From IMG/VR virus record IMGVR_UViG_3300023176_001501, positions 1 through 24,376 of that record: a DNA stretch of 24,376 nt. One strand, given 5' to 3'. The notes below the pieces were generated by a model. The model had not been told where the DNA came from, searched no databases, and saw only the letters and a program-made list of their open reading frames with translations. Of this stretch, positions 1-24,325 are shown piece after piece. Origin of the DNA: a virus. Positions within the stretch are counted from its first letter, which is position 1, and each line of letters opens with the position of its first letter. A program made the translations under genes and the position numbers.

Positions 1-6
1 TATTAG

Positions 7-248
7 TTTTGTCAGGTTTTTCTTTACCCACCCTTTCCTTTTACGATTATTAGGGATTTTAGGCCTATTTCCGAAGGGGGTCCTGACAAAATGACAAAAC
101 TGCCAAAAGTGCGCCAGTACTGCGTTTGCGCCATTTTGACAAAACTGACAAAATGACAAAACTCACCCGTTTTTGCCAAAATTAATACCTAAATCCGACT
201 AATTGCGATAAATAAGGGGGTCTTTTGTCAAAAGTTTATGACAAAACT
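7..248. repeat. TGACAAAA iteron-like cluster
   Basis: This gene-free stretch holds eight exact copies of TGACAAAA. Six are on the plus strand (84-91, 92-99, 137-144, 146-153, 154-161, 239-246) and two on the minus strand (7-14, 223-230). Two near-copies, TGCCAAAA, lie at 101-108 and 174-181. A 19-bp direct repeat, CTGACAAAATGACAAAACT, occurs at 83-101 and again at 145-163, and GGGGGTC precedes the motif at 76-82 and 216-222. Arrays of short directly repeated sites like this typically bind an initiator or repressor, so a replication origin or control region is plausible. No ORF of note is seen here. The role is inferred; the repeats are directly visible. Confidence 0.75.
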
Positions 249-6465: not shown

Positions 6466-6801
6466 ATGAACGAAGTACACAAAGATCAATGGAAAGTTAA
6501 CTATCTCTGGAGGTTAAAAACTTTAACCGATAGAGAGCTTAATACATATCTTTCCGAAAAGCTAGAACCTGAATATAAGGAGAGAGAGGTGCGAAGATAT
6601 ACCTTAAAAGAATATATTGAATTTGTAGGAACTGAGCCAGCAGCAGAATTATTTGACTGTTCGCCAGCAACTACTAAGTCCTGGAGATATGGTGCAAGAC
6701 AGCCATCTATCAAACAGGCAAAAAAAATAATTAAAGCTAGTGGGGGTAAGCTTGATTTCGAGTCTATATACGGTCCATTAGAAGAAACGAGTGAAGATTA
6801 A
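6466..6801 (+). CDS. helix-turn-helix regulator (Cro/CI-like)
   Basis: Residues about 47-90 form a probable helix-turn-helix: helix TLKEYIEFVG, then EPAAELFDCSPATTKSWRYG, where AAELF leads into the turn and SPATTKSWRYG is the recognition helix, followed by QPSIKQAKKIIKASGG. The first 45 residues are charged and helical and could mediate dimerisation. Size (111 aa) and domain suit a phage transcription regulator. It stands directly at the divergent promoter between itself and Sak4/DUF669, so it may control that region and its own operon. It is followed after two bases by the GTG of the primase gene. Target sites cannot be identified from the sequence alone. Confidence 0.65.
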   Translation: MNEVHKDQWKVNYLWRLKTLTDRELNTYLSEKLEPEYKEREVRRYTLKEYIEFVGTEPAAELFDCSPATTKSWRYGARQPSIKQAKKIIKASGGKLDFESIYGPLEETSED

Positions 6802-6803
6802 GA

Positions 6804-8927
6804 GTGTTCAACCTAAATATTACAGCGCAAGATACTGCGTTGGATTTAGCGCTTGCGTATGCTGAATATGGTGTAAGTGTAGTACCACTACACCGCCATA
6901 ATAAAGTTCCGCCAAAAGAACTTGGCGGTTGGCAACAGTTTCAAGAGCGACAGCCAACGACGGAAGAAATAACTAAATGGTTTAAAGGTAGAGATGATTT
7001 AGTTGTAGCTTTAGTATGCGGAAAGTTTATTGTCGTCGACGCAGATACTCCTGAAGCTGTTAATTGGGCTGACGCTAGTCTACCTACTACCCCATTCAAA
7101 GTCGCTACAGGTAAAGGCGTACACTATTACTACAACAATCCTGAAAACTTTACTACATATGTTGCAAGAAGAACCGCAACAACCGAACCTGAAAAATTAA
7201 TAGATATAAGAGGTGTAGGTGGCCTTATTGTTGCACCACATAATATACATGCTACTGGTGCTATATATGAACCAATAACTATTCCTGAATGGGAACTAGA
7301 TGAAGTAGAAGATCTGCCTGATTTTACTAGAGAACTTTGGGTAAAGATTACAGGCGCAGATAAAGTAAATGGCAAACCAATACAAACACCTTTGTCTTTA
7401 GATGGTGTAGTAGAAGGATCAAGAAATGATCAAGCGGCTAGACTTGCTGGCTATTTAATAGCAAAAGATTTAAACATAGACTTTGTACATTTCTTTGTTA
7501 ACTCTTGGAATCAACAAAATAAACCACCTCTCCCTGATTCAGAAATACAAACTACTGTTAATAGTATTCAGAAAACTCACGAACGAAAAAACCAACAAGC
7601 ACCAGCCTACATATCTAAGCAAAACAATATTCAAGAACCAATCGACTTATACAGTCCTCCTGGAATCATCAAGGATGTTTACGATTACTCAGAAAAGATA
7701 GCGCAGATATCTCAACCAGCTTTAAGTATGCAAGCAGCTTTGGCTCTTTGCTCTGTATCTCTTGGAAGAATGTATAAGACCAATATGAATAATTTTTCAT
7801 CTTTGTTCTTTATGTGTATCGCAAAGTCAGGTCAGGGAAAAGAAAATGTAAAGACAGTTATAGAAGCTATCTTAGATCAAGCTGGCCATTCTGACTTAAT
7901 GGCTGGTGATGGCTACACTTCTAGTGGTGCTATCTATTCTATTCTGAGACATAAACCAACACATATAACAGTTATGGATGAATTTGGTAAAAGGTTAGAA
8001 AGTATATCTAACTCAAGTAATTCTAATAAAGAAGATGCTATCCAAGTTCTTATGGAAACATGGGGAAGATGTCATGGTACTTTGCGACCTGACAATTATT
8101 CTATGATGACGTTAACGCAGAAACAACAACAAGAAGTGCTAGATAGATCAACTATCAAACCTGCAATAACGTTGGTCGGTATGAGCGTACCAAAGAATTT
8201 CTATGGTGCGCTCTCAACCGGTCGTATCGTAGATGGATTCTTAAATAGATTTATTGTTGCTGAATCTAACATCCCAAGAACTGTCGGTAAAATGAAACCG
8301 TTTGTTGAACCACCTAAGTCAACAACTGACTGGGTATCGCATGTTCGTCAAGTCAGAGATGAAATGGAGCAGATTGCTGTCAATAATGCTGAGATAGATT
8401 TCAAACAACGTATCGTATCTTTCTCAGATGAAAGTAACCATTTACTAGAAAAGCTTGCTTACGATTTAGTAGACCAACAAAACCGTTTAGAGAAAGATGG
8501 CTTAGAAGTATTGCTATCAAGAACAAGAGAGAAAGCTATGCGACTTGCTATGATTGCAGCGTTAGCAGATAACCGTAATGCCAAAGTTATACCAGTAGAA
8601 ATGACTAAGTGGGCTATTGATTATGTTAATTATTACGATCAGCTATTAGTAGAAAGCTGTAGAGATAAAGTTGCTGGTTCTGAAATGGAAGGCAAGATTA
8701 AACAAATACTTAACTTTATTAGATCTCAAGGTGACTGGGGTATAAGTAAGCGTGATATTGATAGACGTGAAATATTCAGATCAATGAAGTCGTATGAAGT
8801 TAAAGAAATTATAGAAAGGCTTAAAAACGCTGGTGAGATCCAGGAGAAAGACTTGCGAGCCAAAGGAACAGGTCGACCAACAAAAAGAATTGTTGCGATT
8901 GATCCTGAATTTTTTGATGAAGATTGA
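6804..8927 (+). CDS. PrimPol-PriCT-DUF3987 primase/helicase-like replication protein
   Basis: This 707-aa protein probably primes phage DNA synthesis. The N-terminal third looks like an archaeo-eukaryotic prim-pol: VVDAD with D79 and D81 as metal ligands, GKGVHYYY with H107, and DIRGVGGLIVAP (R136). A PriCT-like region follows (about 200-260, EGSRNDQAARLAGYL). The C-terminal part resembles DUF3987, with a P-loop-like AKSGQGKEN (340-348) and Walker B-like ITVMDEFG (388-395). The loop has Glu/Asn where Ser/Thr normally follows the lysine, so ATPase activity is uncertain. A helical C-terminal tail (SKRDIDRREIF onward) may be a winged helix. It uses a GTG start just after the HTH gene and overlaps the next ORF by 11 bases. 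No DNA polymerase is seen, so the prim-pol may matter for replication. Confidence 0.82.
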   Translation: MFNLNITAQDTALDLALAYAEYGVSVVPLHRHNKVPPKELGGWQQFQERQPTTEEITKWFKGRDDLVVALVCGKFIVVDADTPEAVNWADASLPTTPFKVATGKGVHYYYNNPENFTTYVARRTATTEPEKLIDIRGVGGLIVAPHNIHATGAIYEPITIPEWELDEVEDLPDFTRELWVKITGADKVNGKPIQTPLSLDGVVEGSRNDQAARLAGYLIAKDLNIDFVHFFVNSWNQQNKPPLPDSEIQTTVNSIQKTHERKNQQAPAYISKQNNIQEPIDLYSPPGIIKDVYDYSEKIAQISQPALSMQAALALCSVSLGRMYKTNMNNFSSLFFMCIAKSGQGKENVKTVIEAILDQAGHSDLMAGDGYTSSGAIYSILRHKPTHITVMDEFGKRLESISNSSNSNKEDAIQVLMETWGRCHGTLRPDNYSMMTLTQKQQQEVLDRSTIKPAITLVGMSVPKNFYGALSTGRIVDGFLNRFIVAESNIPRTVGKMKPFVEPPKSTTDWVSHVRQVRDEMEQIAVNNAEIDFKQRIVSFSDESNHLLEKLAYDLVDQQNRLEKDGLEVLLSRTREKAMRLAMIAALADNRNAKVIPVEMTKWAIDYVNYYDQLLVESCRDKVAGSEMEGKIKQILNFIRSQGDWGISKRDIDRREIFRSMKSYEVKEIIERLKNAGEIQEKDLRAKGTGRPTKRIVAIDPEFFDED

Positions 8928-21295: not shown

Positions 21296-21790
21296 TTACT
21301 CCTTATCAGGGGTGTTGGATGCTCCAAAATAGAATGATATGACAGCACTTGCTAAACCGCCAAGATAGCCTAGTACCAAGTTGATAAGAGCCTCAGAATT
21401 TTGTTCGGGAGGTTGAATGGTGACTAAAAATATATAGCCAAGAAATCCACCCAAAGTTGCGATCCCCATAATTCTAGCAGTCCAGTCTTTGCTAAAGTTT
21501 TTTCTTGCATCTTGCTTGTCTTTAACTTCAAGCTCAAAGACATCTACTTCAAGTTCTTTCATTTGTAACTCAAAGTCTTTTTCTGCTTTTTTAAGCTCAA
21601 GCATTTGAGCTGGGGTTGCTTGTTGAATGCCTTGTTCTATAGCTTTTGGAGTATTAGGAACACCTAAAACATCTGCTATAACAGATCCTGCCATTCCGCC
21701 AAGTGGACCAGCTAAAGCAGATCCTAAAGTGGGAGCAACGCTGCCAACAACATTTTTCAGTTTACCTGATAATAAATTTTTAAAAGCCAT
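21296..21790 (-). CDS. GTA-type 3-TM holin-like protein
   Basis: This protein resembles the GTA_holin_3TM family (PF11351), holins of gene transfer agents and phages. It has a hydrophobic Gly/Ala-rich N-terminal segment (about 15-43, VGSVAPTLGSALAGPLGGMA), a charged central helix (KKAEKDFELQMKELEVDV) and two C-terminal membrane segments (about 107-124 and 135-155, ending GGLASAVISFYFGASNT). It directly precedes the lysozyme. It should form pores that let the lysozyme through. The start has only weak sites upstream, so translation may be coupled to the XhlA-like gene. Confidence 0.85.
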   Translation of the reverse strand: MAFKNLLSGKLKNVVGSVAPTLGSALAGPLGGMAGSVIADVLGVPNTPKAIEQGIQQATPAQMLELKKAEKDFELQMKELEVDVFELEVKDKQDARKNFSKDWTARIMGIATLGGFLGYIFLVTIQPPEQNSEALINLVLGYLGGLASAVISFYFGASNTPDKE

Positions 21791-21793
21791 AAT

Positions 21794-22006
21794 TTATACC
21801 ATCAAAGCCCAAGATAATAGAGCTATTATTATAGCTCCAGCAAAACTTATTATTCCAAAAGTAGCTATCCTTATAGTTTTATTAATACTAGATATTTCTT
21901 CTTTGATTTCGCCAGTTTCTTTAAATATGGTTTTCCAACGCTCTTCGCATTTGACCTCATGTGCGTGAAGGTTAGCTGCTACTTCTGCTGTTGTTGCTTT
22001 TGCCAT
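21794..22006 (-). CDS. XhlA-like lysis accessory membrane protein (70 aa)
   Basis: This 70-aa protein has a charged helical N-terminal half (EERWKTIFKETGEIKEEISS) and a single C-terminal membrane segment (about 46-69). The arrangement resembles the XhlA/hemolysin-like small phage proteins that sit with holins. It starts one base after the stop of the 118-aa gene and lies just upstream of the GTA-type holin. It may modulate holin action or anchor a partner. The match is by arrangement, not by specific residues. Confidence 0.6.
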   Translation of the reverse strand: MAKATTAEVAANLHAHEVKCEERWKTIFKETGEIKEEISSINKTIRIATFGIISFAGAIIIALLSWALMV

Positions 22007-22364: not shown

Positions 22365-24325
22365 AAATTTACCTGCGATTGTAAGATGGTTTGCATCTTA
22401 TTTATATTTGTATTGGCTAAATTGTAATATGCGTTAGTATTATCATCAATCCTTGCATCTGTATAAATAATTTTGCTTTCATACCAAAGATTTTGGTCTG
22501 GTATAGAAACATCTTTATAACGGTTAAAACCTGGCACATATCCAAGATAAGCGACAAAAGCTGTTTGATCTGCATACTCACCAGATTCTTGTTGCTCTTC
22601 TTCCATTTCTTCTTGTTCTTGTTTTAGATTATTGGCTAATATCTGATCAGCTATCTTATCTGCCTCAGATGATGTCATTACATTAGAGGTAGCGGTTAAT
22701 ATTTGATCTTGCATGTCGTTAATTTGCACATCAGACATAACCGCATTATCTAAAGTAAAAAGTGGCGTGATAGTTATAGAGTTATCTCCTATAGAATCAC
22801 TTAACTGTAATACCGTATTGTTTTGCATATTAGCTGACATTATCTGATCAGATATAGAGGGAGAAGATGTCGTACTAATACCTGCGGCCTGAGCATCGTT
22901 ACCAATATTATTTTGTTTGGTATAACTCTCGTTAGCAGTTTGTAAGGTTTGAGCTACAACTTTCAAAGCACTAGCAATACTATTACCTTTGGGTGTTTCT
23001 TCAAAAGTTTCTATAACTTCTTCAATAAACTCTTCTTCAATAATTTCTTCAAAATTCTCTTCTACGATTAATTCTTCTACAAATTCTTCTTCAATAATTT
23101 CTTCTATAGGTTCTTCTTCAATAAATTCTTCTATTTCTTCGATTATTTCAGTTGTTGTAAAAATTTCTAAAAGTTCCTCTGCGTCAAAAACATTTATTGG
23201 AACTGTTTGAGTTACAGGTTCATACGTATCTAATACATCTATTATTGGATCTATAAAAATATCTTCTTGGTAAGTTTCATTAAAATCAAACTGTTCAAAT
23301 TGCTCTTCTTCTACAGGATCGGTATAAAGAATCACTTCATCTTCTGTAATTTGAAATGTTTCGTATTCCATAGGTGCGGTTTGTATAGCCATAATTCCAA
23401 TAACTTCTGGTATATACCCTGAACAAGTTGGGCTATATTGTGGATCTTTTTCACATTCATAATCACGATAGGCTTGTTCGTAACCACTGCATTCGGTTGA
23501 ATATAAAGCATCAATACTACATTGTTGATCCTGATAGGCTTGGTCATACCCACTACAGCTAGTTGAATACAGAGCATCTAGATTACATTGTTGAGCTAAG
23601 TAAGCCTCTTCATAACCATCGCAACTAGAATCATTAAGAGGATCGCTGCAATCAAGACCGTCTCCTTCTCCGTACAAAGAACCGCCAGCTTCTAGATTGG
23701 TATTTTTATCTGAAGCATTCCAATCATAACTATAACAATTAGTACCGTTAGTTGAGCCTGTATTGCATTCATCGTGAAAATAATAAGTATAGGTTTGGCT
23801 AGAGTTTCCTTGCTCACCAATAAGAACATCGTGATTAATGATATCTAAATCACCGTATCTAATATCGTAAGTATTATTGTTCCAAAGTATTACCTCAAAA
23901 CTATTATAAGAACCTTGGCGATAATACTCTTGCATCTTGTACCAACCAAAAACAATCTTGTCGTTAAAGTTTTTAGCAGCCATTTTTGCATTCGCATCTA
24001 CCGCTATAAGATCAGTCCAAAACGGATATATGGTGTAATTAAATTGAGCTAATGGATCAGGTGTGTAGTCATTGCACCCGGTCCCACTTGAACCAAAATG
24101 TAAGCAGCCGTTGGTAGCCATTCTTGCAGTAGAGAAAGTTTGTTCGTAAAAGGTAAAATCAAAACCTAGATTAAATGCGGAAGATATAGAATCATCGCCT
24201 GATGTTAGCCAAGTGACATCGGTTTGATTGGTTAAATCTACAAGAGATTGATTAGATTCGTATATGTATTGAGGAAAAGCTTGTAAACAAAAAAGGGCTA
24301 TTCCCCATAAAACTCTTTTTCGCAT
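22361..24325 (-). CDS. secreted NIDO-like, cysteine-repeat, acidic protein (654 aa)
   Basis: A basic start and hydrophobic stretch (MRKRVLWGIALFCLQAF) form a signal peptide. Residues about 45-190 resemble a NIDO (nidogen-like) domain: ATNGCLHFG, YPFWTDLI, FGWYKMQEY, FEVILWNNNTYDIRYGDL. Three 22-residue cysteine repeats (CxGYxxAYxxxxC, 235-300) follow, then a Glu/Phe/Ile-rich acidic region (about 383-443) and a Gln/Glu-rich stretch near 569-580. The order suggests an extracellular or envelope protein. The cysteine repeats could form disulfides outside the cytoplasm. It is the first gene of the leftward lysis/virion block in this window. I cannot assign function; adhesion, surface modification or a spanin-like role are guesses. 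The ribosome binding site is weak (ACGAATAAACA), so the start is less certain. Confidence 0.6.
   Translation of the reverse strand: MRKRVLWGIALFCLQAFPQYIYESNQSLVDLTNQTDVTWLTSGDDSISSAFNLGFDFTFYEQTFSTARMATNGCLHFGSSGTGCNDYTPDPLAQFNYTIYPFWTDLIAVDANAKMAAKNFNDKIVFGWYKMQEYYRQGSYNSFEVILWNNNTYDIRYGDLDIINHDVLIGEQGNSSQTYTYYFHDECNTGSTNGTNCYSYDWNASDKNTNLEAGGSLYGEGDGLDCSDPLNDSSCDGYEEAYLAQQCNLDALYSTSCSGYDQAYQDQQCSIDALYSTECSGYEQAYRDYECEKDPQYSPTCSGYIPEVIGIMAIQTAPMEYETFQITEDEVILYTDPVEEEQFEQFDFNETYQEDIFIDPIIDVLDTYEPVTQTVPINVFDAEELLEIFTTTEIIEEIEEFIEEEPIEEIIEEEFVEELIVEENFEEIIEEEFIEEVIETFEETPKGNSIASALKVVAQTLQTANESYTKQNNIGNDAQAAGISTTSSPSISDQIMSANMQNNTVLQLSDSIGDNSITITPLFTLDNAVMSDVQINDMQDQILTATSNVMTSSEADKIADQILANNLKQEQEEMEEEQQESGEYADQTAFVAYLGYVPGFNRYKDVSIPDQNLWYESKIIYTDARIDDNTNAYYNLANTNINKMQTILQSQVNL
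22997..23179 (-). repeat. acidic low-complexity coding repeat
   Basis: Inside the 654-aa protein, residues 383-443 repeat the pattern E-E-[FIL]-[IV]-E-E, with runs such as IEEIEEFIEEEPIEEIIEEE. The DNA carries matching repeats of TTCTTC/GAAGAA. This may bind Ca2+ or mimic DNA. Confidence 0.6.
23426..23623 (-). repeat. three 66-bp coding repeats (22-aa Cys repeat)
   Basis: Three successive 22-codon units, beginning CDGYEEAY, CSGYDQAY and CSGYEQAY and ending before a fourth CSGY (residues 235-300), are visible. Each contains two cysteines and a D-x-x-Y-S pattern. The conserved spacing suggests a repeated small disulfide-linked module. Confidence 0.75.

Follow-up and report, generated by a model that had tools for sequence, protein, structure and literature searches.

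A conserved array of 8-bp words upstream of the small terminase gene as a candidate packaging-initiation site in marine phages

The way in which small terminases recognize pac is not well understood. In phage lambda, the R-sites of cosB are repeated sites that are read by the small terminase (TerS) and lie close to its gene, terS. The pac site of phage P1, as given in the available excerpts of PMC10028697, lies in pacA, spans 161 bp and contains, as proposed binding sites of the pacase, seven hexamer repeats in two clusters. In SPP1 and SF6, pac is a region with direct repeats that covers promoters and the start of the TerS gene (excerpts of PMC4737164 and PMC6316719), and the purified SF6 TerS domain hardly discriminates these repeats by sequence (PMC4737164). 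More generally, the available part of a review (PMC9611059) characterizes TerS binding in pac packagers as mostly weak and non-specific in vitro, and describes cos in general terms.

Here we describe an array of the 8-bp word TGACAAAA at one end of a 24,376-nt stretch of viral DNA (the window), next to a gene that probably encodes TerS. Like P1 pac, the array is a short repeat-bearing element at a small-terminase gene. Unlike P1 pac as the excerpts present it, the word contains no GATC, the array is located upstream of terS and not inside it, and 8–11 copies occur in both orientations around an AT trough, with no IHF consensus in the five arrays tested. With SPP1 and SF6, as far as the cited excerpts describe them, the system shares direct repeats at the TerS gene and may share a TerS with an N-terminal HTH; the SF6 DNA-binding domain (2cmp, 4zc3) is among the best structural matches of the TerS model. 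It differs in that SPP1 has three repeat sets and the SF6 domain is non-specific, whereas here a single, strictly conserved word occurs in as many as eleven copies. Direct repeats combined with an AT-rich unwinding element are also a feature of the SPP1 origins oriL and oriR (excerpt of PMC6316719); by the same account oriL is located inside gene 38, which encodes the initiator, whereas the present array lies at terS, with the primase-helicase gene (Prim-Pol) about 6.6 kb away. Unlike in lambda, there is no clear sign of unique cohesive ends, and most contigs run through the array. We found no description of this array in the literature searched, which is not proof of its absence. Of three readings, namely a pac-type packaging-initiation site read by TerS, an origin of replication and a control region for terS, we favour the first.

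Words and layout of the array

The first-pass annotation had reported eight exact copies of TGACAAAA (six forward and two inverted), a duplicated 19-mer and two GGGGGTC boxes in a gene-free stretch, and had judged the cluster to exceed chance expectation. Counting and repeat comparison bear out each of these points (Table 1). All eight copies fall within positions 1–246, and none is found in the rest of the window. Dinucleotide shuffles of the whole window contain 1.91 copies of the word on average and five at most, so that none of 100 attains eight; for any 8-mer within 350 bp, 40 Markov shuffles of the window reach a maximum of four copies against the eight observed. The stretch is intergenic: p247 ends at its right side and the start of terS lies to the left, outside the window. 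The inverted repeat bounding the element recurs in two relatives (L045 and L011) in longer versions.

Table 1. Array elements and neighbouring genes, in window coordinates
Feature	Position	Strand	Basis or remark
TGACAAAA, forward copies	starts 84, 92, 137, 146, 154, 239	+	exact word count
TGACAAAA, inverted copies	starts 7, 223	-	exact word count
Left arm of 11-bp inverted repeat bounding the element, TAGTTTTGTCA	4-14	-	TAG flank plus TGACAAAA word at 7-14
Right arm of bounding inverted repeat, TGACAAAACTA	239-249
Pyrimidine-rich tract with ACCCNCCCTT, then G-rich tract ending in AAGGGGGTC	22-82		parts conserved in relatives
GGGGGTC box, first	76-82	+	precedes first word pair
Duplicated 19-mer CTGACAAAATGACAAAACT	83-101 and 145-163		repeat comparison
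Word pair	84-99	+	start spacing 8 bp; within 19-mer copy 83-101
Word triplet	137-161	+	words at 137, 146, 154; overlaps 19-mer copy 145-163
GGGGGTC box, second	216-222	+
Palindrome TTTTGTCA-N8-TGACAAAA	223-246		inverted copy at 223, forward copy at 239
p247, 89 aa	247-516	-	adjoins array; syntenic in both clades
HTH repressor-like protein	6466-6801	+	phrog_35, E 7e-5; possible binder under the operator reading
Prim-Pol/PriCT/DUF3987 primase-helicase	6804-8927	+	possible initiator under the origin reading

The cluster is real, but the extent first assigned to it was incomplete. Locus L018 differs from the window by 12 mismatches over 3,605 bases, with the first 300 identical, and its array continues leftward for about 105 bp: three extra words lie beyond the left end of the window, at distances of approximately 105, 90 and 79 bp, followed by the AT trough. 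Judged from this alignment, the window truncates the element, and the complete array is one of 11 words. Complete arrays measure approximately 338–360 bp.

An exact 17-base pattern search of viral sequences, most of the dataset being metagenome contigs and many of them fragmentary, recovered 40 stretches. The 25 with at least five clustered words encode relatives of the window proteins; the other 15, with only two or three words, encode none. Alignment of 21 distinct arrays (from 25 of the 27 word-bearing loci, the other two, L013 and L019, being truncated or unmatched by the search expression) shows that 86% of word columns are invariant versus 32% of other columns. A common layout recurs: an inverted pair, which a direct copy follows at 11 bp, then the AT trough, one inverted word, the pyrimidine- and G-rich stretch, direct words 8–9 bp apart in some groups, and the terminal palindrome. 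In a 44-kb contig, nine of the ten words fall within 330 bp, and no equal cluster is found elsewhere in the contigs checked. Both the word count beyond the cluster and the comparison with related phages had been proposed as checks in the first-pass annotation, and both speak for the array. Since the words are kept while their surroundings diverge and no equal cluster exists elsewhere in these contigs, the interpretation as an array of protein-binding sites is well supported at the level of sequence comparison.

The words are A-rich, and a minus-strand frame across the array runs for 111 codons without a stop in both L040 and L034; these features would suit a low-complexity or expanding tract that evolves neutrally, or repeats that belong to a coding region. 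However, the longest open stretch, in the same first frame, ranges from 26 to 111 codons across nine relatives, so that a coding role was rejected: the reading frame is not kept. The word columns are also far better kept than the flanks, their spacing is maintained, and shuffles yield no such clusters. We consider a neutral or coding nature of the repeats extremely improbable.

The AT trough inside the array has a G+C content of 6–10%. In six of nine related contigs (G002, G003, G015, G031, G034 and G035) the lowest 50-mer of the whole record falls in this trough; in the other three (G019, G024 and G027) and in HTVC023P it does not. In DSL-LC04 the AT trough likewise contains the record's lowest 50-mer. 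The array has no match in Rfam.

The small terminase gene beside the array

The product of the leftward neighbour gene, which lies outside the window, is 32–33% identical to the annotated small terminases of the Pelagibacter phages HTVC027P and HTVC023P (about 33% for the latter), both of which show weak matches to Pfam Terminase_2. The window-lineage protein itself has no PHROGs or Pfam match at E 0.001, including none to Terminase_2, and the Pam5 small terminase is recovered by the TerS profile at E 0.13 only. The AlphaFold model of the window-lineage protein has a pLDDT of 60, and Foldseek finds no match at E 0.001. Among the realigned Foldseek candidates, the SF6 domains score Z 6.8 (2cmp, 54 residues) and Z 6.2 (4zc3), the full-length protein (3zqq) 6.4, PaP3 6.1 and NV1 5.7; unrelated or designed helical proteins score equally. 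We assign the gene to TerS with good but not complete confidence, on the basis of distant sequence similarity and a weakly predicted fold.

Phages with this TerS and array are common in IMG/VR. A TerS scan yielded 80 loci, 71 of which have at least 500 bp upstream and were counted. All 71 contain 7–11 words in the 700 bp before the terS start, and in each of them the nearest word starts approximately 105–170 bp upstream of terS. Of the nine loci with less than 500 bp upstream, six show 1–5 words and three (with 0–22 bp) show none. In a second clade, clade 2, TerS is approximately 70–80% identical and the same word is found in a different arrangement. By word counts, DSL-LC04 and HTVC027P have no comparable array upstream of terS. 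A search of genome contigs for host or prophage relatives with TerS gave 452 pattern matches and no relatives.

A large terminase gene with TIGR01630 and phrog_38 matches is located about 10 kb beyond terS. Two contigs overlapping at both ends imply, by simple arithmetic, a genome of approximately 59 kb. Contig ends, considered as a proxy for genome ends, show a moderate upstream enrichment near terS and no clear hotspot at the array: 13 of 25 upstream ends lie within 500 bp of terS in one count and 12 of 25 within 640 bp in another, a similar clustering of ends is seen on the downstream side of the gene, and most contigs cross the array. Among the loci compared, only the window and L013 end inside the element; metagenome contigs such as these could derive from concatemers. 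In G019, a 52-kb relative contig (loci L062 and L064), a 1,383-bp repeat with 87% identity is found near both ends, at 58–1440 and 50982–52364.

Word arrays in a second lineage

HTVC023P is distant from the window phages: a tblastn comparison with the window proteins at E 1e-3 finds only TerS and the structural protein p18138 in common. Its replication genes comprise an AEP-TOTE primase, a UvrD helicase and a polymerase, which have no detectable relation to window proteins. The top 8-mer cluster of HTVC023P is another word, CTAGGAAA, present in five copies within 92 bp directly upstream of terS and seven genome-wide. By itself this cluster is modest, as one of 40 shuffles attains five. It is, however, general among the 80 HTVC023P-type loci found in IMG/VR: all 73 with at least 210 bp upstream (seven were left out) carry 4–8 degenerate sites in 190 bp upstream of terS, compared with a mean of 0.18 and a maximum of 3 in 1,528 control windows, the degenerate pattern having been picked after viewing the sequences. 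As HTVC023P shares almost nothing else with the window and still has an array before terS, the array appears to travel with TerS.

The slot positions are mostly kept between HTVC023P-type loci, while the words that occupy them may change together. Most loci have TAG in the slots; L210 and L211 have TAA in all six, L217–L220 have TGG in three of four, and L165 has CAG in three of five. Such multi-slot changes within sublineages suggest coevolution with a binding protein, and gene conversion could alternatively homogenize the slots. No TerS residues explaining the slot changes could be named: HTH substitutions in L210 are partly common to L225, which keeps CTAGGAAA.

Long inverted repeats enclose the region from approximately -270 to -25 relative to terS in L188 and other HTVC023P-type loci. 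In DSL-LC04 (L055:20562-20764), imperfect 36-base inverted arms are found upstream of terS with no clear word array. The inverted repeats of both groups have imperfect arms of approximately 18–36 bp with a common TACACT..CT.ACAAA-like core. HTVC023P-type genomes have been circularized via terminal overlaps, according to the available excerpt of PMC9599517.

Packaging site, origin or operator

Two lineages whose replication genes are unrelated both have an array beside terS, which suggests that TerS reads the array and that its function is to start packaging; the repeats at the TerS gene in P1 pac and SPP1 pac are published precedents. On these comparisons, we give slightly better than even chances to the array being a pac-type packaging-initiation site read by TerS in a podovirus-like phage of about 59 kb. 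We infer TerS as the binder, cutting at the array and headful packaging: the HTH domains of oligomeric TerS would bind the 8-bp words in both orientations, the array-bound TerS would recruit the large terminase for the first cut of the concatemer, and headful packaging would follow. The TIGR01630 kind of large terminase supports the pac reading. Against it stand the AT trough within the array, which is an origin-like trait, the lack of comparable arrays in DSL-LC04 and HTVC027P, the distribution of contig ends, the low sequence specificity published for SF6 TerS and other pac packagers, the modest cluster in HTVC023P taken singly, and the weak TerS model.

The first-pass annotation had proposed an initiator or repressor binding array, possibly the origin of replication. 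The binding array stands, whereas an origin is not established, the GC-skew turn being elsewhere. In an origin, the words would serve as iterons for an initiator, for which the C-terminal region of Prim-Pol/DUF3987 is the simplest candidate, and the initiator would melt the AT trough. Short direct and inverted repeats with a trough that has approximately 6% G+C and is in many records the minimum fit such an arrangement and resemble the SPP1 origins mentioned above; replication genes begin approximately 1–2 kb from the array, and Prim-Pol is found in both clades that carry the TGACAAAA array. Clade 2 contigs spanning the region retain the word array but lack the nearby SF2 helicase, which is therefore unnecessary for the array and was rejected as a required binder. 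Prim-Pol has no PDB match, and its C-terminal model (pLDDT 53) is too poor for structure search. The skew minimum sought at the array is not there: the cumulative GC-skew turn sits at the divergence of p870 and p1181, approximately 1.1–1.5 kb away, and follows gene orientation (in G003 the minimum is at 23,104 versus the array at 21,547–21,876). Moreover, HTVC023P has a different word before terS while its primase, UvrD helicase and polymerase are not detectably related to window proteins and the AT content there is unremarkable. The origin reading stays alive because of the AT trough inside the complete array, and we regard it as possible though unlikely.

It appears improbable that the array is an operator or promoter region which governs terS together with the early genes of leftward orientation and to which the HTH protein, p247 or TerS would bind. 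The array does lie inside the leftward gene series p870-p675-p247-terS, its inverted word pairs look like dimer sites, and the HTH protein weakly matches a repressor family; p247 has no Pfam or PHROGs family. However, a promoter and terminator scan near the array detects three promoter-like sites, not above the shuffle mean of 4.3, and up to eleven sites over approximately 350 bp are long for an operator. HTVC023P also lacks both the HTH protein and p247 in the tblastn comparison at E 1e-3.

The packaging reading has a more specific form, in which TerS would read the 8-bp words sequence-specifically and coevolve with them (TGACAAAA here, CTAGGAAA and its variants CTAAGAAA, CTGGGAAA and CCAGGAAA elsewhere), with the packaging start and an AT-rich melting region or replication origin possibly joined in one element; we hold this form to be doubtful. 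Strictly conserved words before terS that differ by lineage would represent natural matched pairs of TerS and site, making pac recognition a simple binding and swap question in common marine phages.

Two further observations concern the neighbouring genes. In the clade 2 contig G034 (L319:3439-5626), an insertion of two genes separates p247 from the early genes; by their motifs, we take them to be DNA methyltransferase look-alikes. At the other end of the window, tandem-like TTCTTC repeats at 23013–23147 correspond to a glutamate-rich stretch in the 654-aa protein p22361.
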